Shown: in pieces, positions 4,596 through 49,749 of the stretch
How the letters are laid out: every line of letters begins with the position of its first letter
Numbering within the stretch: the first letter of the stretch is position 1
From: Planctomycetota bacterium
GTDB lineage: Bacteria; Planctomycetota; UBA8742; UBA2392
NCBI GenBank assembly: GCA_020845475.1
Contig: JADLFN010000046.1
Span: 138,997-202,996 of the forward strand
DNA length: 64,000 nucleotides
Reading direction: 5' to 3'
Notes under the pieces: model-generated
The model's input: only the letters and a program-made list of their open reading frames with translations
What the model was told of the DNA's origin: nothing
Databases searched by the model: none
Position numbers and translations under genes: made by a program

Positions 4596-5189
4596 CTATT
4601 TCCCGCCGGCCTTTTCGTAGTTCTTGGCCGCGAAATCCCAGTTCGCCAATGAAGCCAGGAACGTATCGAGGAACTTGGCGCGCGCGTTGCGATAGTCGAT
4701 GTAGTACGCGTGCTCCCATACGTCGCAGCACAGCAGCGGCGTCGCGCCACCCTTGAGCGGGCATTCGGCGTTAGGCGTCTTGGTGATTTCCAGCTTGCCG
4801 CCCTTGAGCGACAGCCACGCCCAGCCGGAACCAAACTGCGTCATGCCGGCCTCATGGAACTTTTTCTTGAAGTCGTCGAAGCTGCCGAAGTCGCGCTTGA
4901 TCGCTTCTCCGATCGCGCCCGTCGGTGCACCGCCGCCGCCCGCCTTGAGGCAATTCCAGTAGAACGTGTGGTTCCACACCTGCGCGGCCTGATTGAAGAG
5001 CGGGCCTTCAGCCGTTTTGATCAGTTCTTCGAGGCTCTTGCTGCCCTCGGGCTTGCCGGCCGTGATCTCATTCAGCTTGTCCACGTAAGCTTTAAGGTGC
5101 TTGCCCCAGTGGTAATCGAAATGCTCAGCGGAAAGGTGCGGCACGAGCGCGTCCTTGGCGTAAGGAAGCGGCGAGTGTTCAAAAGGCAT
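4596..5189 (-). CDS. sodB: Superoxide dismutase, Fe/Mn family
   Basis: 197 residues, the normal size. It converts superoxide to oxygen and hydrogen peroxide. Family landmarks are all present: LPYAKDALVPHLSAEH with the first ligand His in YHWGKH, AAQVWNHTFYWN (second His), FGSGWAWL, and DVWEHAYYIDY (ligand Asp and His). The QVWNHTFYWN wording is closer to the iron-type enzyme, though metal choice cannot be fixed from sequence. There is no signal peptide, so it is cytoplasmic. It is single-gene, with its own candidate promoter upstream (5241-5269) and divergent from the selenoprotein cluster. Start ATG 5189 is preceded by a GGAG-type ribosome site (CTGGAGGAATCC). Confidence 0.95.
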   Translation of the reverse strand: MPFEHSPLPYAKDALVPHLSAEHFDYHWGKHLKAYVDKLNEITAGKPEGSKSLEELIKTAEGPLFNQAAQVWNHTFYWNCLKAGGGGAPTGAIGEAIKRDFGSFDDFKKKFHEAGMTQFGSGWAWLSLKGGKLEITKTPNAECPLKGGATPLLCCDVWEHAYYIDYRNARAKFLDTFLASLANWDFAAKNYEKAGGK

Positions 5190-5503: not shown

Positions 5504-6361
5504 ATGCGAACGCTTTCTTCAACGGTATTGACGCTGGCCATTGTGAGCCTGGCGTTTGTTACCGCGCAGAAGCTGCAGGCCGGCTGATGACCGAAGGGCG
5601 GACAAGGTGCGTCCCGTGTGGACAAGCCGCAAACGAAGCGAGTTGGAACCCCAGCCCAGCCTGCGACTCCCATTGCGTGGGAGAAGCCGGACAGCTCAGC
5701 GCTTGAGAATGCCCAGAATGGCGACAAGCCGGTGGTCATTTTCTTCCCCGGCGAGGCCGCTGACCAGAATTCGGACAGCTATCTCTCCGACCCGGCCGTG
5801 AAGGCTCTGGTGAACGACAAAGCCATTTTTGTCCGTGTTGCCTACACCAGCGACCGTGAGAAGGCCCCTTCGGCTTCGCCGGTTCCGACGTGCAAGCTGA
5901 CGGGTGACAACCCCACGCGCGATTACGGCGTGCGGACTTACCCGACGTTCATCATTGCGGACAAGTTCGGCAACGAATGCAACCGCATTGAGTCCAAGAA
6001 GCCGACGGCCAAAGAGTTTGAAGCGTTCTTCGAGAAAGTGTCTTCCAAGATGGAAGACAACAGCAAGAAGCTTCAGAAGAATCTGGACGCTGCGAACAAG
6101 GCTTGGACTGGCAAGGATCGCAAGAACGCCCTGGCCAGCGTAATGCGTAGTTTCAAGGAAGGCCTCGTCGGGTACGATCCTGTTGAACCGACTGTGCGCC
6201 TTTACAACGAGCTGCTCGAAGATGCCCGCGGCGAAATCAGCCGCCTCGCTGAAGCCAACGATGTCAAGGGCCTGAAGGCGCTCAAGGCCCAGCTCAAGGG
6301 CACCGACGCCGAAAAGGATGTTGACGAGGCCATCGCTGGCCCCTCCAACACCAGCAAGTAA
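5504..6361 (+). CDS. Secreted thioredoxin-fold selenoprotein A, tandem Sec (UU) at mature N-terminus
   Basis: 285 residues if UGA at 5585-5587 and 5588-5590 is read as Sec (U28, U29). Start ATG 5504 has a strong site (AAAGGAG at 5491-5497). Residues 1-27 are a signal peptide ending LQAG; cleavage after LQA would leave G-U-U. Then comes a Gly/Pro-rich linker with RVDKPQTKRVG, shared with the next gene (RVDKPQQAKKRVVG), which argues for translation across the UGAs. Residues about 60-165 resemble a thioredoxin fold (KPVVIFFPGE, RDYGVRTYPTFIIAD) with PGE where CxxC normally sits. One Cys remains at VPTCKL. The rest is helical. A strict reading starting after the UGAs would lose the signal peptide. 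Function unknown; likely a periplasmic or extracellular redox or metal-binding role. Confidence 0.88.
5596..5615 (+). promoter_or_regulatory. Possible SECIS hairpin of selenoprotein A
   Basis: Downstream of the double UGA, GGGCG (5596-5600) can pair with CG-t-CCC (5610-5615, T5612 bulged) around loop GACAAGGTG. The alternative is GGAC/GTCC around AAGGTGC (loop at 5604, 16 nt after the first UGA). Both expose GGU in the loop. This is the weakest of the six hairpins in the window. Confidence 0.45.
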
Positions 6362-6821: not shown

Positions 6822-7727
6822 ATGACAGGTATGATCAGGACAGTCGGGCTCGCTGTGGCGTCCTTTGCGATGCTCGGCATTTCGGCTCAAGCTCTCAACG
6901 CCGGCTGATGCCCCGCCCCAGGCGGCGGTGGATCCGCTGGCACAGGTGGTACGGGCGCTCCAAGCGGTGGCAGCGCTGAACGTGTTGACAAGCCTCAGCA
7001 GGCCAAGAAGCGCGTAGTGGGCGCTCCGGCACCGGTCGAATCTCCCACGTTCCAGCGTCCGGGATCGGACGTCCTGGAGAACGCGGCAAACGGTCAACAG
7101 CCGATTTTCATCTTCTTCCCCGGCGAAAAGGACGACCCCAACACCTACTTCGGCGGGGCCGACTACAAAGCGCTGGAGGGCAAGGCCCAGTTCGTGACGG
7201 TGCCTTACAACTCCGACCGCGAGCCTTCGCCCGCGACCGAGGAATCCCTGGTTCCGACGTGCAAGCTCCTTTCGGATAACCCCTCGCGCGACTACGGCAT
7301 CAAGATGTACCCTGCCTTCATCATCGCCGACAGCTACGGCAACTCGATCCTGCTGCTCAGCGGCAAGAAGCCTGCGGCCAAGGACTTGGAGTCAGCCTTT
7401 GAAAAGGTTGGCGCCAAAATGGAGGACAACTCCAAGAAGCTGCAGAAGCGCCTCGACACCGCCAAGAAGTCTTGGGAAGCCAAGGACTCCACCAAGGCGA
7501 TGAACGAGATCCGCGGCAACTTCAAGGACGGCCTCGTGGGCTACGACGCCCAGAACGAAACCATCCGCGTTTACCACGAAGTCATCGAAGCCTCACGCGC
7601 TCAGGTTGAAAGCCTGAAAGCCGACGGCTCGGCGGAGGCGATGAAGTCGCTTAAGGCGATGAAGAACACGTTCAAGGGCACAGAGCTCGAAAAGTCAATC
7701 AACGAAGCCCTCAAGGGCTCGAAGTAA
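6822..7727 (+). CDS. Secreted thioredoxin-fold selenoprotein B, Sec-Cys (UC) at mature N-terminus
   Basis: 301 residues if UGA 6906-6908 is Sec (U29). ATG 6822 follows GGAGA (6812-6816); ATG 6831 in the same frame is a weaker alternative. The signal peptide ends ALNAG; cleavage after LNA would give G-U-C. U29-C30 aligns with U28-U29 of selenoprotein A, so Cys stands where A has its second Sec. A Gly/Ser/Pro linker follows, then the shared RVDKPQ element. Residues about 80-190 resemble a thioredoxin fold (QPIFIFFPGE, RDYGIKMYPAFIIAD) with no CxxC; a Cys occurs at VPTCKL. The C-terminal about 110 residues are charged helices. Role unknown; the U-C pair could form a selenenylsulfide. Confidence 0.88.
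6918..6940 (+). promoter_or_regulatory. SECIS-like hairpin of selenoprotein B
   Basis: CCA-g-GCGG (6918-6925) pairs with CCGC-TGG (6934-6940): seven pairs with one bulged G. Apical loop CGGTGGAT begins 17 nt after UGA 6906-6908 and has G at its second position. Size and spacing fit known bacterial SECIS elements. Confidence 0.65.
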
Positions 7728-7790: not shown

Positions 7791-8681
7791 ATGTCAAAGT
7801 TCAACATCGTGCTCGTCGCGCTGGTGACAATTCTGATGTCCAGCGCGGCTTGGGGCCAGTGAGGCGGCGGTGGCGGCTGAGGTGGCGGCGGCGGCGCCGG
7901 TGGCGCCGGAGTGGGTGCGGGTGGCGGTGCGGGGCCAGTTGGGCCCGGTGGTGGTGGTGGCGGTCGGGGAGCCTTGAAAGCCGACGGCATTATCGGCTGG
8001 GAGCCCTCGACGCCCAAGACGCTCGAGAAGGCGGCAACAGACAGCAAGCCAATCTTGATTTACTTCCCGGGCGAGGGACCTGAGTACAACTACGATGGCT
8101 ACTTCTACGGCAAGGATCTGAAGGACCTTGCGGACAAGAAGGCCGTGTTCATTCGCGTGGCCTACACAAGCGACCGCGCACCGGTTCCGTACTCGGAACA
8201 GAGCCCGATTCCATTGAACAAGATCGCCGGCGACAACCCGTCGCGCGACTACGGGATCAAGAATTACCCGACGTTCATTATTGCTGACCAGAACGGCAAC
8301 CCGTACTTCCGTGTTGAGGGCAAGAAGCCGACGGCCAAGGATCTCGAAGCCTACTTTGACAAGGTTCCTGAAGCCGCGACCAAGGCCAACGAGAAGCTTC
8401 AGAAGAACCTCGACGAAGCCAAGAAACTCTGGGAGAAGAAGGACAGCAAGGGCGCCGTGGCCATGTTGATCAAGAATTTCAAGGATGGCGCGGTTGGCCT
8501 CGCGGCCGCCGAGGGCGGCATCAAGCTGTACCGCGAGTTGCTTGAAGATGCCAGGGCCAAGCTCAAAGATATTGGCGACAAGAGCAAGGCCGACAACGTC
8601 AAGAAGCTCAAGGCCATGCAGCGCGAGTGGGGCAAGGGCACCGAGATCTACTACGAGATTGAGGACATCCTGAAGTCCTAG
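7791..8681 (+). CDS. Secreted thioredoxin-fold selenoprotein C, U-GGGGG-U Gly-rich N-terminal tail
   Basis: 296 residues with UGA 7860-7862 and 7878-7880 read as Sec (U24, U30). ATG 7791 is preceded by a TAGGAG site (7778-7783). Residues 1-21 are a signal peptide (IVLVALVTILMSSAA). The predicted mature start is Q-U, then five Gly, a second U and a roughly 40-residue tail almost purely Gly, Ala, Val and Pro, ending at GRGALKADG. Residues about 75-185 are the thioredoxin-like domain of the two upstream paralogues (SKPILIYFPGE, RDYGIKNYPTFIIAD), again without CxxC and here without the VPTC cysteine (IPLNK instead). After the Secs the protein has no Cys, so any redox or metal chemistry must use the selenols. 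Function unknown. Confidence 0.86.
7892..7908 (+). promoter_or_regulatory. SECIS-like hairpin of selenoprotein C
   Basis: CGGCGCC (7892-7898) pairs perfectly with GGCGCCG (7902-7908) around a GGT loop. The loop is 18 nt after the second UGA (7878-7880) and 36 nt after the first (7860-7862), so one hairpin could in principle serve both. Confidence 0.72.
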
Positions 8682-9236: not shown

Positions 9237-10637
9237 GTGCCTGAAAAAACTACATCTCCGTCGTTGCGCGACCTGCCAAAGGTCGATGCACTGCTTTTGA
9301 CCACCGACTTCGAGGCGTTGGCCCAGCGCTACGGCCGCACTCCCGTGGCGCAAGAAACCCGCGCCGCGCTGGATTCATTGCGCCAGCGCCTGCGCGCCAA
9401 CAATGGCGTGAACACTACAGAGATTTCGCCTCACGGCCTCGCCTTGCGCGTGCGCGAATCACTGGAAAAACTCTTCGCGCCGCGCCAATGCCGCGTCATC
9501 AACGCCACAGGCGTGATCCTGCATACCTCGCTGGGCCGCGCGCCGCTTGCTCCGGCCGCCGTCGAGCAGGCCGTGCGCGAGGCTTCGGGCTACTCGCTGC
9601 TCGAACTCGACCGCGAAAGCGGCAAGCGCAGCGACCGCGACAAACTGGTAAACGATCTGATCTGCCGCGTGACGGGCGCGCAGGCCGCGACGGTCGTGAA
9701 CAATAACGCCGCGGCCACGATGATCATTCTGAACTCGCTTGCCGAGGGCCGCGAAGTCATCTGTTCACGCGCGCACATGGTGGAAATCGGCGGCAGCTAC
9801 CGCATGCCCGACGTCATGCGCAAGGCAGGCTGCAAGCTCGTCGAAATCGGCTGCACCAACAAGACGCACCCTCGCGATTACGAAGACGCCGTCACGCCGC
9901 AAACGGCGCTGCTGCTCAAGGTGCACACCAGCAATTACGCCGTCGTCGGCTTCACAGAAGAAGTCTCGCTGCCTGACCTGATGGCGATTGGCAAAAAACG
10001 TGAAGTGCCCGTTTTCTATGACCTCGGCTCCGGCTCATTGGTTGATCTCGCGAAGTACGGCATCTCGCGCGAGCCCAGCGTGCCCGAATTGCTCAAGCAT
10101 GAACTGGATGTGCTCTGCATCTCCGGCGACAAGCTGCTGGGCGGCCCGCAGGCGGGCATCATCATCGGCAAGCCGGAGATCGTGCAGCGCGTGAAAAAGA
10201 ATGCGCTCTTCCGCATGGTGCGCTGCGACAAATTCACGCTCTCGCTGCTCGAAGCCACGCTCAAGCTTTATCTCGATGAAGATTCGGCTCTCAAGCGCGT
10301 GCCAACACTCGCGGCAATCACGCGCGACGCTGGCGAGGTCAAGCTGAGCGCCGAACGCATCTGCGCTTCGCTCAAGAAAGCCGGTCTTGACGTGTCAACG
10401 GCCAGCGCCACAAGCCAGGTCGGTGGCGGCAGCACGCCCGGCGAGTTTCTGCCCACCACGGTCATCGTCTGGCGCGGCCCCTTCAAATCGGTCGATGACA
10501 TCGCGCGCCGCCTGCGCCTTGGCACGCCCTGCGTGTTTGCGCGCATCGAGGACAACGCCCTGCTCTTTGACCCCCGTTCGCTGCTGCCCGGCCAGGACGA
10601 CGAACTGGCCGCGGCCATTCTCGCGGTCAAGGCGTGA
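9237..10637 (+). CDS. selA: L-seryl-tRNA(Sec) selenium transferase
   Basis: 466 residues, full length. SelA is a PLP enzyme that converts Ser-tRNA(Sec) to Sec-tRNA(Sec) using selenophosphate. The N-terminal tRNA-binding domain starts LPKVDALL, then VINATGVILHTSLGRAPL, the standard SelA opening of the catalytic domain. The PLP lysine is in SGDKLLGGPQAG (about K299). GTG 9237 is the first good start. The gene sits 550 bp downstream of three selenoprotein genes and 730 bp upstream of tRNA-Sec, with a glycosyltransferase gene overlapping its stop (GTGA). It ends in TGA, showing that UGA also works as a stop here. selB and selD are not nearby. Confidence 0.97.
   Translation: MPEKTTSPSLRDLPKVDALLLTTDFEALAQRYGRTPVAQETRAALDSLRQRLRANNGVNTTEISPHGLALRVRESLEKLFAPRQCRVINATGVILHTSLGRAPLAPAAVEQAVREASGYSLLELDRESGKRSDRDKLVNDLICRVTGAQAATVVNNNAAATMIILNSLAEGREVICSRAHMVEIGGSYRMPDVMRKAGCKLVEIGCTNKTHPRDYEDAVTPQTALLLKVHTSNYAVVGFTEEVSLPDLMAIGKKREVPVFYDLGSGSLVDLAKYGISREPSVPELLKHELDVLCISGDKLLGGPQAGIIIGKPEIVQRVKKNALFRMVRCDKFTLSLLEATLKLYLDEDSALKRVPTLAAITRDAGEVKLSAERICASLKKAGLDVSTASATSQVGGGSTPGEFLPTTVIVWRGPFKSVDDIARRLRLGTPCVFARIEDNALLFDPRSLLPGQDDELAAAILAVKA
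10387..10398. repeat. TTGACNNGTCAA palindrome inside selA
   Basis: TTGACGTGTCAA, one of six copies of this palindrome in the window. Here it encodes part of GLDVSTAS near the C-terminal end of SelA. Confidence 0.6.
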
Positions 10638-11314
10638 GCGAAAGCCTCACCATCCTGCTATTGACGAAAAACGAGGCCGGCAATATCGGCCCGCTGATTG
10701 CTTCATTGCAGGGCGCGCTGACCGAGGCCGCGCCAACGTTCCTGGTCATTGATGCCAGCAGCGATGCCACGCCCGAGCAAGCCAGGTCCGCCGGCGCAAC
10801 CGTCATCGCTGACAAATCACCCTACGGCGTGGCCCTGACGCGCGGCCTGCGCGAAGCAGCAAGCGAATGGGTTTTGGTGCTCGATGCCGACGGCAGTCAC
10901 CTGGCTGGTGACGCGCGCAAACTCTGGGATGCACGCGAAAACGCCGACCTCGTGGTGGGTTCGCGCTTTGCGGCGGGTGCCGGCAGGAGTGCACAAGGCG
11001 CCTTTCGAGCCTGGCTCTCGCGCCGCCTCGCAGGCCTGTTTGCGGCCTTCGCGCGCCTGCCCGCACGCGACGTGAGTTCAGGCTTCAGGCTCTATCGAAG
11101 AGCGATGTTTGCCGAAGCAAAGCCCGCCGCCCAGTTCTTCAACGTGCAGCCCGAGCTGCTCGCCCACGCGGCAAACAAAGGCGCGCGCGTCAAGGAAATC
11201 GGCATCACCTATGCGCCAAGGGGCCAGGGCCAAAGCAAGGCCCGCGTGTTGAAGTATGGTTGGGCTTTTCTGAAGAGCACGTGGCGGATAAGACGGATGC
11301 TGCGCCGCAGGTAG
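10634..11314 (+). CDS. Family-2 glycosyltransferase
   Basis: 226 residues. GT-A fold of the dolichyl-phosphate mannose/glucose synthase type: LTILLLTKNEAGNIGPLI, VIDASSDATPE, and DADGSH as the metal-binding D-x-D, followed by VVGSRFAAG and the SSGFRLYRR acceptor loop. These enzymes move a sugar from a nucleotide donor to a lipid phosphate or surface glycan at the cytoplasmic membrane face. There is no C-terminal membrane pair. GTG 10634 overlaps the selA stop (GTGA), so it is translationally coupled to selA. A GtrA-like gene lies on the other side of selA. The TAG stop lies within a perfect palindrome. Confidence 0.85.
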   Translation: MSESLTILLLTKNEAGNIGPLIASLQGALTEAAPTFLVIDASSDATPEQARSAGATVIADKSPYGVALTRGLREAASEWVLVLDADGSHLAGDARKLWDARENADLVVGSRFAAGAGRSAQGAFRAWLSRRLAGLFAAFARLPARDVSSGFRLYRRAMFAEAKPAAQFFNVQPELLAHAANKGARVKEIGITYAPRGQGQSKARVLKYGWAFLKSTWRIRRMLRRR

Positions 11315-11364: not shown

Positions 11365-11457
11365 GGGAGCGGATGCATTCCTGGTGGATGCCCTGGTCTT
11401 CAAAACCATGGTGGGGCGCGAGTCCCAGGTCGGTTCGATTCCGATGCGCTCCCGCCA
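11365..11457 (+). tRNA. selC: tRNA-Sec (anticodon UCA)
   Basis: 93 nt including encoded CCA (11455-11457). The anticodon TCA is at 11400-11402 in loop CTTCAAA. It has the features that set tRNA-Sec apart: long acceptor (GGGAGCG pairs with CGCTCCC), a 6-bp D stem (GCATTC/GGATGC) with a short loop, a long variable arm (about TGGGGCGCGAGTCCCA), and T arm GTCGG-TTCGATT-CCGAT with discriminator G. The eighth acceptor pair would be G-G, a small departure from E. coli selC. It is charged with serine and converted by SelA, whose gene lies just upstream. Confidence 0.95.
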
Positions 11458-31987: not shown

Positions 31988-32860
31988 CTAGTCAAAAGGC
32001 ATGGGGTTGAGCACGGCCCTGGGCGGAGTCTTGGGATCTATGAAGGCTGCGTGCACCTGATGGCACTGGTGGCAGTGGGAGACCATTTCCTGGTAGGCCT
32101 GCCTCAGCTTCTCGCGCTCTTTGTTTGCCGCCAGTCTGGCCAGGGCGTCAGCCGCGATTTGCAAGTCGCGCCAGCGTTTGCCGCGCTTGGCTGCAATGTC
32201 CATGATGGCTTGAACGTGCGCGATAGCCGCGCTTGCGTCCTTGGCGATGATGGCGGCCTCGGTTTTGTCGTGGTGCACGAGCATGGCCTGCATGACGGCG
32301 CGGTTTTCCACGGCGGGCGGCGGCTCGCCTTCATTGAGCATGGAATCGTGCGCGCTGGGGATTTCGTTGCGCAGCCATTTGCCGATGATTTCTTTGGTGG
32401 CGTGCTGGTAGATCGGCGACCAGGTTTCGAGGTGGCAGCTATCGCAGGCCTTGCCGAAGGTTTCGTTCTCGGCGTTGGCGGATAGCCAGTCTTTGTCAGC
32501 AAGCGCCTCGACGACCGCTTTGCCCGGCGCGGCAAAGGCCTCCCAGCGCATGGCCAATCGATCGGCGCGGCTTGAGATGTCTTTGGCGTAGGCTTCAACG
32601 AGCGCGTAATCGGGAGCACCCTGGCCGCGGCTCATGGTCACGATCTTGGCGCAATCAAGCCAAAGCGTGCGCATGGTGGTTTTGTACTGGTTGCGATAGA
32701 TCCAGTTGTGATCCAGCTGGTCATCCCAGAACGGCGGAGCCTGTTTGGGTGCAGGTGGGCTGTTGTTGCCCGAACTGTTGCCCGTGCAGGCCGCCACGAA
32801 CAACGTCATCGAAGCGGTTGCGCACATCAGCGCAAAACACACAGCCGCGCGCCTGTTCAT
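31988..32860 (-). CDS. Predicted dihaem c-type cytochrome lipoprotein
   Basis: 290 residues from ATG 32860, which follows GGAG at proper spacing. Lipoprotein signal with lipobox VAAC (SMTLFVAACTGNSS). Two CxxCH haem sites: CDSCH in the middle and CHQCH near the C-terminus, the latter followed by VHAAFIDP. Between them are amphipathic helices (HHDKTEAAIIAKDASAAIAHVQAI). It resembles the four-helix cytochrome c' fold in part, repeated. An exported electron carrier is likely; partner unknown. It is transcribed just after selenoprotein D (72 bp apart, same strand), so the two may form a transcript. Confidence 0.75.
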   Translation of the reverse strand: MNRRAAVCFALMCATASMTLFVAACTGNSSGNNSPPAPKQAPPFWDDQLDHNWIYRNQYKTTMRTLWLDCAKIVTMSRGQGAPDYALVEAYAKDISSRADRLAMRWEAFAAPGKAVVEALADKDWLSANAENETFGKACDSCHLETWSPIYQHATKEIIGKWLRNEIPSAHDSMLNEGEPPPAVENRAVMQAMLVHHDKTEAAIIAKDASAAIAHVQAIMDIAAKRGKRWRDLQIAADALARLAANKEREKLRQAYQEMVSHCHQCHQVHAAFIDPKTPPRAVLNPMPFD

Positions 32861-32931
32861 CGTTGAACTCCGGTACCCAAAAGAAAGCGTGTGGCCGGCC
32901 TCAGCCTGCCACACGCGTCTGCTTGATGCGC

Positions 32932-33765
32932 CTACTTGCTGCCGGCCTTCGCCGCCAGCGCCTTGATGGCACTTTCGATTTCGGCGCTCACATCGGTGCC
33001 GGCATAGGTTGCCTGCAACTGCTTGAGTTTTGCGTCGTCCTCAAGGGCCGAAGCGAGCAGTTCGCGGGCGCGTGTCATGATGCTGTTGTAAAGCTTCGCG
33101 GCTTTCGTGGCTTCTTCCCAGTGGGTCAGCTTCAACTTGAAGCCTTCGAGCAACTGCTTGACCGCGGCGGCGTCATCGCTCGCGTCAACGTGCGATTGGG
33201 CCTGATCCACGAACTCGGCCAATTGGGCGCGCGCCGCCTTGATGGTCTTGCGCAGCGAGCTGACGGTTTTTTCGAGCTTCTTTTCCGTGGTGCGCGCAAA
33301 TTCGTTGCCGTATTCGTCGCACACTATGAACGTGCCGGCCTCGGGATTGTCGTAGGCCGCCCACAGGCTCGTGTTCGCAAGACGGCTCTGGGGCACGATA
33401 CTGGCCTTTGGCGCAACTGGGGCTTCGCCCTCTTTAGGGGCGCTCACGATTACGCAGGACACCAGAGCTTTCTTCTGCAAATCGCCAAGGTCAACATCGG
33501 CCGTCCACTTGGCGTCTTTGGACTTGTCCTCAAAGTAGAAGACAAGCGCCTTGCCGTTGCTGCGCGCATCCTGAAACACGTCTTTGCTGGCTGAAATCCA
33601 TGTTGTGGCCACCTGGCCACCGGCTTTCTGCCCTCACGTCTTGGTTCCACCGGAACCTTCGCCAGGCGCTCACGACGCTCAGGCAAAGGCGTCAAAGGGC
33701 GAAAGCAGGCCCGTTCCCAGTGTCAGGAACGAGGCCGCGGCAAATGTCAGCAGAGTCTTTTTCAT
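32932..33765 (-). CDS. Secreted thioredoxin-fold selenoprotein D with UASU plus a third Sec
   Basis: 277 residues if UGA at 33681-33679, 33672-33670 and 33636-33634 is Sec (U29, U32, U44). ATG 33765 follows AGAAGGG. Residues 1-28 are a signal peptide ending DAFA; cleavage after AFA makes Sec the first mature residue. The tail is U-A-S-U (CxxC with both Cys as Sec), then APGEGSGGTKT-U-GQ. The domain (KALVFYFEDKS, then GTFIVCDEYGNEFA) and helical C-terminus are related to selenoproteins A-C. Two hairpins follow the UGAs (listed). Starting at GTG 33612 would remove the signal peptide and all Secs. The dihaem gene follows on the same strand. Function unknown. Confidence 0.87.
33605..33620 (-). 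promoter_or_regulatory. SECIS-like hairpin after the third UGA of selenoprotein D
   Basis: On the minus strand GTGGCC (33620-33615) pairs with GGCCAC (33610-33605) around AGGT. The loop starts 19 nt after UGA 33636-33634 and has G at position two. Confidence 0.7.
33643..33657 (-). promoter_or_regulatory. SECIS-like hairpin after UASU of selenoprotein D
   Basis: On the minus strand GGTTCC (33657-33652) pairs with GGAACC (33648-33643) around GGT. The loop lies 18 nt after the second UGA and 27 nt after the first. Confidence 0.75.
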
Positions 33766-48696: not shown

Positions 48697-48720
48697 AACC
48701 CGCCTCACACGGAGACCGCC

Positions 48721-49749
48721 ATGCTCAAGTATGCCGCCCTGTTGCTGCTCCTGGCCGCGCCGCTTTGCGCGCAGGACCAAAAGCCCCTGCGCACGGGCGA
48801 TGTCGCGCCGGAACTTCGCATCACGTATTGGCTGGAAACGCCCGAGAAAACCACGCTGGCGGAAATGGCCGGCGACGTGGTCTTCATCAAGGCCTGGGGC
48901 ATGGGGTGAGGCCCGAGCATGGGGCAGTTGCCCCACATGAACGAGCTCTATGAGAAGTATTCGGCCAAGGGTTTGCACATCATCGGCCTGTACTCGCAGG
49001 GCGAGGCCATTGACGAAATTGCCAAGGTGGTGAAGGAAAAGAACATCAAGTATCCGCAGGCGCTTTCCTGGCTCGATGAAGACAATGCCTGGGACAACTC
49101 CTCGGTGCCGCGCGTGTGGATCGTGGGCGTGGACGGCAAGATCAAGTTTTCCGGCGTCAAGGGCTACGAGAAGATCCTTGAGTCGGAACTTGCCAAGGTG
49201 AAGCACCCCGGCCTGGGCGACATTGAAGTTGCGGCCGAACTCAAGGAAGCCGCGGCCGCCTTTGGCGCGCGCGAATACGGCAAGGCTTGGAAGCTGGCCG
49301 ACGCCGTGGCATCCAACAGCGAGGCCAGCGACGCCGCCCAGGACTCCGCCGCCAAGATCAAGGCCTGCGTGGACGAGCGCTTCCGCGTGCTGCGCAACAA
49401 AGCCGAAGTAGCCGAAGTCGAGAACGACTGGCGCCTCGTCGTCACCACCTGGCGGGCTATCGCCGAGCGCTTCACGGGCTACGAAGACGCGGCTGAAGCC
49501 CTGGAGAAGTGCGAGAAGCTGAAAGCGGACAAGAAGGTGCAGTTGGAGCTGGAAGCGGCCACGGCGATTCGCGTGATCGACCGCGAATTGAATGACAAGG
49601 GCGCAGGCCTTGAGGAGTGGATCAAGCGCTACAAGGAGTTCGCCACGAAGTACAAAGAGACGAGCTGGAACGAAAAGGTCAACGCGGCCATCGAGCGCAT
49701 GCAGCAGGAGTTGAAGGACGCCGAAGAAGCCGGCAAAGGCGGCAAGTAA
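48721..49749 (+). CDS. TlpA/AhpC-type thioredoxin selenoprotein with UGPS active site
   Basis: 342 residues with UGA 48907-48909 read as Sec (U63). ATG 48721 follows GGAG. Signal peptide MLKYAALLLLLAAPLCAQ. Residues about 20-165 are a TlpA/ResA-like thioredoxin domain: LRTGDVAPELRITYWLE, VVFIKAWGMG-U-GPS, MNELYEKYSAKGLHIIGLY, VPRVWIVGVDGKIKFSG with cis-Pro context. The site normally WCGPC is G-U-G-P-S: Sec for the first Cys, Ser for the second. After it come about 175 helical residues. Only one Cys remains, far away (KACVDERF). It probably works as a periplasmic selenol peroxidase or reductase. The frame is unbroken on both sides of the UGA. Confidence 0.93.
48920..48935 (+). promoter_or_regulatory. 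SECIS-like hairpin of the thioredoxin selenoprotein
   Basis: TGGGGC (48920-48925) pairs with GCCCCA (48930-48935) around AGTT. The loop starts 16 nt after UGA and has G at its second position. Confidence 0.72.

Follow-up and report, generated by a model that had tools for sequence, protein, structure and literature searches.

A glycine-rich arm bearing a pair of selenocysteine or cysteine residues in a family of predicted exported thioredoxin-fold selenoproteins from uncultured Planctomycetota

What kind of protein places two in-frame UGA codons, exactly five glycine codons apart, at the head of a long glycine-rich stretch, and are both of them read as selenocysteine (Sec)? The question is raised by a gene, here called C, in a 64,000-nucleotide stretch of a Planctomycetota genome (hereafter the window; the source assembly is 4.27 Mb and 76.8% complete). 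With TGA read as U, C (7791..8681, + strand) runs from an ATG at 7791 through 296 codons to a TAG at 8679-8681, and its product begins MSKFNIVLVALVTILMSSAAWGQ-U-GGGGG-U-GGGGGAGGAGVGAGGG... (features of the locus are collected in Table 1). The open reading frame list, made without read-through, opens the gene at GTG 7911 and misses both UGAs. A first-pass annotation of this DNA had noticed the two UGAs and the five Gly codons between them (GGC GGC GGT GGC GGC) and was right about both, as it was about the lack of Cys after the Secs, there being no Cys among all 296 residues. It overcounted the Gly/Ala/Val/Pro residues that follow, which it put at more than 40: the pure G/A/V/P run after Sec30 is 28 residues long, and the whole arm from U24 to K63 amounts to 40. 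The predicted signal peptide is probably cleaved after AAWG. A lipoprotein reading of the family's N-termini was ruled out by eye, the residue at -1 being Gln in many members.

Table 1. Positions of the features discussed, numbered from the first nucleotide of the window
Feature	Position	Strand	Basis or detail
Fe/Mn superoxide dismutase, divergent from the cluster	4596..5189	-	
Paralogue A	5504..6361	+	arm AG-UU-PKGG
Paralogue B	6822..7727	+	arm AG-UC-PAPGGGG
C: predicted signal peptide, residues 1-22	7791..7856	+	hydrophobicity rule
C: flexible Gly-rich arm, residues 24-63 (26 Gly of 40)	7860..7979	+	AlphaFold2 and composition
C: first UGA, Sec24	7860-7862	+	family's conserved first Sec position
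C: second UGA, Sec30	7878-7880	+	
C: SECIS-like hairpin, 7 bp, GGU loop at 7899-7901	7892..7908	+	register, DNA alignment and covariation
C: predicted thioredoxin-fold domain without CXXC, residues 64-194	7980..8372	+	predicted structure and fold comparison
C: C-terminal helical part, residues 195-296	8373..8678	+	predicted structure
selA, selenocysteine synthase	9237..10637	+	Pfam SelA 3.4e-139
Glycosyltransferase family 2 gene, between selA and tRNA-Sec	10634..11314	+	
tRNA-Sec, anticodon TCA	11365..11457	+	
Two-CXXCH cytochrome c'-like protein, directly 3' of E	31988..32914	-	Cytochrom_C_2 26.1 bits vs 26.5 cut-off
Paralogue E, three-Sec subfamily	32932..33765	-	arm A-UAS-U-(11)-U

We searched for relatives of C in 199 genomes and found matches in 17, which comprise all 16 genomes of its own family (hereafter f1), with 3-8 genes each, and a weak match in G067, a member of another Planctomycetota family. 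The named relatives (8 loci) are Planctomycetota MAGs, and the genome of C itself holds, besides A, B and E, a paralogue D on another contig with the arm UU-GGGGGGG. Of 87 profile hits in f1 loci, 83 were retained after removal of a duplicate (L002, of L078), a contig-end fragment (L045), a shadow frame (L041) and a frameshifted gene (L071), and 82 have a readable arm, another frameshifted gene (L073) being left out of the arm counts. Read by eye, L071 is UC and L073 is UUU; neither is in the totals, except that L073 is included below, as number twelve, among the three-Sec genes checked for a cytochrome neighbor. In the assembly from which these two and L070 come (G014), frameshifts affect Gly-rich and other family genes and are probably sequencing errors.

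The arms follow a simple rule. Sec is present in 67 of the 82 members, as UU (28), UC (22), UUU (11), UUC (3), UCU (2) or CU (1), and the arms without Sec read CCCC (3), CCCCCC (3), CCCCC (1) or have neither residue (8). There are therefore at least two Sec/Cys in 74 arms, none in 8 and exactly one in 0, and at least two arm UGAs in 44 of the 67 Sec-bearing members (16 genomes). The seven Sec-less members with 4-6 Gly-spaced Cys (L049:6428-7381, L059:6347-7297, L070:6859-7782 and four more) always occur in genomes that also hold Sec members. Spacing is far less uniform: among the 66 members whose arm opens with U, the next Sec/Cys follows at once in 48 (gap 0), after a gap of 2 in 13 and of 18 in 2, with one case each of 3, 4 and 5, so that C is the only one of the 82 with a five-Gly gap (U-G5-U). 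In the tree, C groups with the genes from G001 and G002 (both UC; 100/95) and next with that from G004 (U-GGG-C; 100/97), and Sec and Cys have been exchanged repeatedly. These three nearest orthologues thus keep the arm and the Sec/Cys pair, as the first-pass annotation would have it, and depart from its five-Gly spacing (UC, UC and U-GGG-C). None of the three lacks the tail or has lost Sec/Cys from both positions, a loss seen in 8/82 members. Because the five-Gly spacing is not conserved, the diselenide ring once proposed for U-G5-U is not the selected feature; selection acts instead on the Sec/Cys pair, whose spacing drifts.

Part of the Gly run also encodes a SECIS-like hairpin, which accounts for part of the Gly/Ala make-up of the arm. 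In C, GGCGCC-GGU-GGCGCC and one further pair form a stem of seven pairs, whose loop occupies nt 19-21 downstream of the second UGA; counted from the first, these positions are nt 37-39, and no hairpin of the first UGA's own was found at the usual distance. The SECIS of E. coli fdhF likewise has a GGU loop at nt 19-21 after the UGA; in the family, by contrast, Gly codons supply the loop and one hairpin seems to serve two UGAs. The distance from the first UGA to the loop is 28-30 nt in U-GG-U genes and in paralogue E, and we infer that the single hairpin of C probably serves both of its UGAs.

Two properties of this hairpin recur across the family. First, its position is constrained: for 51 of 90 UGAs with a stem of at least 6 pairs and a 3-nt loop, the loop is at nt 19 (33) or nt 22 (18), out of 49 offsets tried. 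Second, its stem covaries. In a 16-row alignment (A5, which replaced the gapped A4, with rows L035 and L037 and the last three bases left out), whose rows were picked by amino-acid motif and distance and not by the hairpin, 96.9% of 128 cells are paired, and 4/8 pairs have changes on both sides. The covariation score is 0.490, against 0.186 for shuffles, none of 500 reaching the observed value, and no more than 0.146 for stems moved out of register. Synonymous-codon shuffles gave a mean z of 2.04 in the 67 Sec members (p <=0.05 in 32/67), against 0.21 in the 15 non-Sec members (2/15) and 0.37 in 82 domain windows (9/82); in rank tests Sec members differ from non-Sec members at 5e-5 and from domain windows at 3e-11, p values that are optimistic because the rows are related. 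Taken singly, the hairpin of C is not stronger than its synonymous shuffles (z 0.97, p 0.215), because Gly codons alone give strong hairpins, and its case therefore rests on register and family covariation. In 11/67 Sec members (e.g., L041_2177, L063_2778 and L065_2453), the best hairpin has at most 5 pairs and shows no notable excess over shuffles. Since the folding energy of the whole 54 nt, scored against dinucleotide shuffles, set the Sec members apart only weakly (mean z -0.58 for Sec members vs -0.20 for domain windows, p 0.04; Sec vs non-Sec members, p 0.21), we used register, synonymous shuffles and covariation instead.

These findings bear on whether the second UGA of C might be a chance GGA-to-TGA change, or an assembly error in the Gly run, with the first alone a selected Sec. 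The spacing unique among 82 members, and the use of GGA at 2 of the 26 Gly codons of the arm, would suit such an accident, which we nevertheless regard as very unlikely: the hairpin is in exact register with the second UGA and not with the first, C would, without its second Sec, stand alone among the members in having one Sec/Cys in its arm, and the nearest outgroup carries U-GGG-C.

The genomic setting and the coding pattern of the UGAs agree with selenocysteine. The family cluster adjoins tRNA-Sec in 15/16 f1 genomes and selA in 15/16, G012 being the exception for both, and all 16 have a tRNA-Sec of at least 69 bits. selB was above cut-off in 13/13 f1 genomes examined (16/21 of all genomes searched) and is present in the genome of C. 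The in-frame UGA aligns with Cys at the same place in relatives. Within their first 75 codons, the 83 retained members have 122 TGAs between them, whereas TGA stands at 1 of 17,595 codons in the folded part of the 82 clean members, a figure that rules out a global reassignment of UGA. Downstream of both UGAs of C, dN/dS is 0.23 and 0.26 relative to two same-genus orthologues, like that of the neighbouring A (0.22) and B (0.24), and this purifying selection means that both UGAs must be read through. From this evidence, the UGAs of the family almost certainly encode selenocysteine, and both positions of C very probably do. Although UGA sits amid Gly codons, its decoding as Gly or some other amino acid, like decay of the genes, is hardly credible in view of the near absence of TGA from the domain, the Cys opposite UGA in relatives, the presence of selA, selB and tRNA-Sec, and the dN/dS of 0.23-0.26.

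We then asked what protein carries the arm. AlphaFold2 (24 sequences) gave a mean pLDDT of 82 and a pTM of 0.73, predicting a thioredoxin fold followed by helices; residues 1-58 have a pLDDT below 50, in line with the earlier suggestion of two Secs on a flexible arm. The best match among solved structures is DsbH 2ju5 (Foldseek E 6.7e-5), and VIA-align gave Thioredox_DsbH 7tkv a Z of 10.9, with thioredoxins and DsbD-gamma tied at about 10. There is no CXXC in the thioredoxin fold: C has no Cys with which to form one, and alignment A1 shows none at the place of the motif. Searching solved structures by sequence returned no real relative, the Pfam cut-offs for Thioredoxin_2 and Thioredoxin_7 were not reached (best 17.2 bits, for paralogue A, vs 27), and no NCBIfam selenoprotein model was over its cut-off (TsoB 0.023 in 1/22). 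The family thus shares with DsbH, Thioredoxin_2, Thioredoxin_7 and DsbD-gamma a thioredoxin fold and the context of exported oxidoreductases, but it has no CXXC in the fold, falls below every Pfam cut-off and bears its Sec/Cys pair on a disordered N-terminal arm, close to where the signal peptide is expected to be cleaved. Judged from sequence and predicted structure, C is a member of a selenoprotein family of exported thioredoxin-fold proteins that is largely confined to one uncultured Planctomycetota family.

Two kinds of neighbor are conserved. An Fe/Mn superoxide dismutase (SOD) gene adjoins the cluster in 14/16 f1 genomes by ORF list and tblastn (the contig of G006 ends inside the cluster, and G010 has none within the fetched stretches), and the SOD ORFs, full or partial, match both Pfam halves in 13/13 scanned. 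A two-CXXCH protein follows 12/12 three-Sec genes (that of the window, those of ten fetched loci and L073, the last by its first residues); 3/4 of those scanned are above the Pfam Cytochrom_C_2 cut-off, and the one in the window is just under it. These SOD and cytochrome c'-like neighbors point to oxidant or electron-transfer chemistry rather than prove it, and the SOD gene may have kept its place by descent alone, with no link in function. A CusA/CzcA-like RND efflux frame, named by eye, lies beyond tRNA-Sec in two genomes alone, G001 and G002 (L034:7877-11338(-) and L036:263-3928(+)).

When 392 genomes of the phylum were searched with a profile, matches came from 29, the 16 of f1 and 13 others, and the matches of these 13, which are weak homologues, contain no TGA. 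Among 11 non-f1 stretches fetched, four homologues (L155, L156, L157 and L159) begin ...AT-C-GGGGGGG, the signal peptide being followed by one Cys and, immediately after it, 7-10 Gly; the rest have no such Cys. Since distant homologues can have a single Cys, the rule of two or none is local to f1, and we conclude from these homologues that the Gly arm predates the Sec pair. A pattern search brought up 35/392 genomes, mostly noise once translated, from which three C-terminal tails and G067 were taken further. In G067, L124:1426-2061 encodes a secreted protein with ...GRG-U-GGGG-C-GGGGG beside selB, and neither a selA over cut-off nor a strong tRNA-Sec was found in that assembly. The three tails belong to exported proteins (L125 in G144, L123 in G055 and L126 in G256) ending in U-GGGG-U-GGGG-U-GGGK, U-GGGG-U-GGGS-U-GGGR and U-GGGSG-U-GGGR, from genomes with selA, the tRNA-Sec matches being weak in G144 and G256; relatives carry Cys at the corresponding places, and such Cys forms occur in L148 and L151. 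One of these Sec-Gly repeat proteins matches the HMA heavy-metal domain weakly, at 0.0012, which does not reach the cut-off.

What might such an arm do? On balance, we favor, at somewhat better than even odds, a redox role for C: the protein would be exported, its active site would sit on the flexible selenol arm instead of in the fold, and it would probably reduce oxidants. The redox centre, which a thioredoxin holds in its CXXC, would have been relocated to the arm, where an oxidant, most likely a peroxide or an oxidised thiol, would be attacked by the first Sec. Resolution by the second Sec/Cys would leave a diselenide or selenenylsulfide, which in C would close a loop of seven residues (U-G5-U), and a partner in the periplasm, either a thiol or a cytochrome, would then reduce the arm again. 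As C is devoid of Cys, only an Se-Se bond is possible within it. Against a mechanism based on a pair stand the four distant homologues with one Cys and poly-Gly, which two chalcogens do not explain.

Alternatively, the arm might be a trap for soft metals (Hg, Ag, Cu or As), in which a Gly tether holds two selenols that clamp an ion in the periplasm and the thioredoxin fold is no more than a carrier. The seven Cys-only paralogues (7/82), whose Gly-spaced Cys are like metal-binding repeats, look as much like metal binders as redox proteins, and the C-terminal U-Gly repeat proteins of three other selA-positive Planctomycetota genomes, with their one sub-threshold HMA match, and the efflux-like frame of G001 and G002 would fit as well. 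We still consider a metal trap unlikely, because that frame is in only 2/15 neighborhoods, where the conserved neighbors are SOD and, for the three-Sec subfamily, the cytochrome c'-like protein, and because a spacing that ranges from 0 to 18 residues is more easily reconciled with a flexible dithiol than with a fixed metal site. Less probable again is a thiol-disulfide or selenenyl oxidoreductase for the folding or repair of exported proteins, similar to DsbH or DsbD-gamma, with the arm dithiol docking via the thioredoxin groove. The closest solved folds are indeed DsbH, Thioredox_DsbH, DsbD-gamma and thioredoxins (2ju5 at E 6.7e-5; VIA-align Z 10-11), but many thioredoxins score equally, so that the fold does not choose, and no dsb gene turned up among the conserved neighbors.

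How new is the layout? The first-pass annotation knew of no protein like it, and none was found in print, but close variants exist in genomes: U-GG-U, U-GGG-C, UU and UC within the f1 family, U-GGGG-C elsewhere in the phylum, and the C-terminal U-GGGG-U-GGGG-U tails. Mammalian thioredoxin reductase has a flexible C-terminal GCUG arm whose neighboring Sec and Cys shuttle electrons; that arm is C-terminal and belongs to an unrelated flavoenzyme, whereas the C family has GUC/QUU at the N terminus, after the signal peptide. Our literature search, which was confined to published papers available without subscription, preprints aside, found no UU motif and no such family. The surveyed part of an inventory of 119 prokaryotic selenoprotein families (PMC13188914) lists neither a UU motif nor a family whose thioredoxin fold carries a Gly arm. 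Its Table 1 includes thioredoxin-like and double selenoproteins, such as TsoB (UxxxxU), MbdU (CU x2), UxxU proteins and the selenobacteriocin SGUG (PMC13188914); as far as this portion of the inventory goes, its entries are, like the C family, bacterial Sec proteins, a few of them with 2-3 Sec.

More broadly, we tentatively suggest, at slightly less than even chances, that Planctomycetota reuse selenium on a glycine tether: Gly arms at either terminus of folds without CXXC (thioredoxin and possibly HMA-like) would bear Sec in pairs or repeats, their Gly codons would at the same time form the SECIS, and a single SECIS could decode two UGAs even 18 nt apart. Against so wide a device speak the search of G067, which yielded neither a selA over cut-off nor a strong tRNA-Sec, the weak tRNA-Sec matches of G144 and G256, and the matches in the 13 genomes outside f1, which contain no TGA. 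If the suggestion is true, a thioredoxin fold can pass its chemistry to a detached selenol arm, whose reach and spacing evolve freely. The reach of a SECIS and the decoding of two UGAs have usually been approached with engineered constructs, and the natural spacings seen here (UU, U-GG-U and U-G5-U) offer material on the reach of one bacterial SECIS and on two-UGA decoding. The family also adds to the known selenoproteins one that current annotation misses because gene callers start the genes after the UGAs.

Finally, when codon usage served to look for more Sec UGAs across the 64 kb window, one was found; as A, B, C and E all escaped it, the scan is insensitive near gene starts. At 48700-49749(+) the window encodes a redoxin/TlpA-like protein with a Sec (UGA 48907) in ...GMG-U-GPS-MGQLP..., at the place of CXXC in such proteins.
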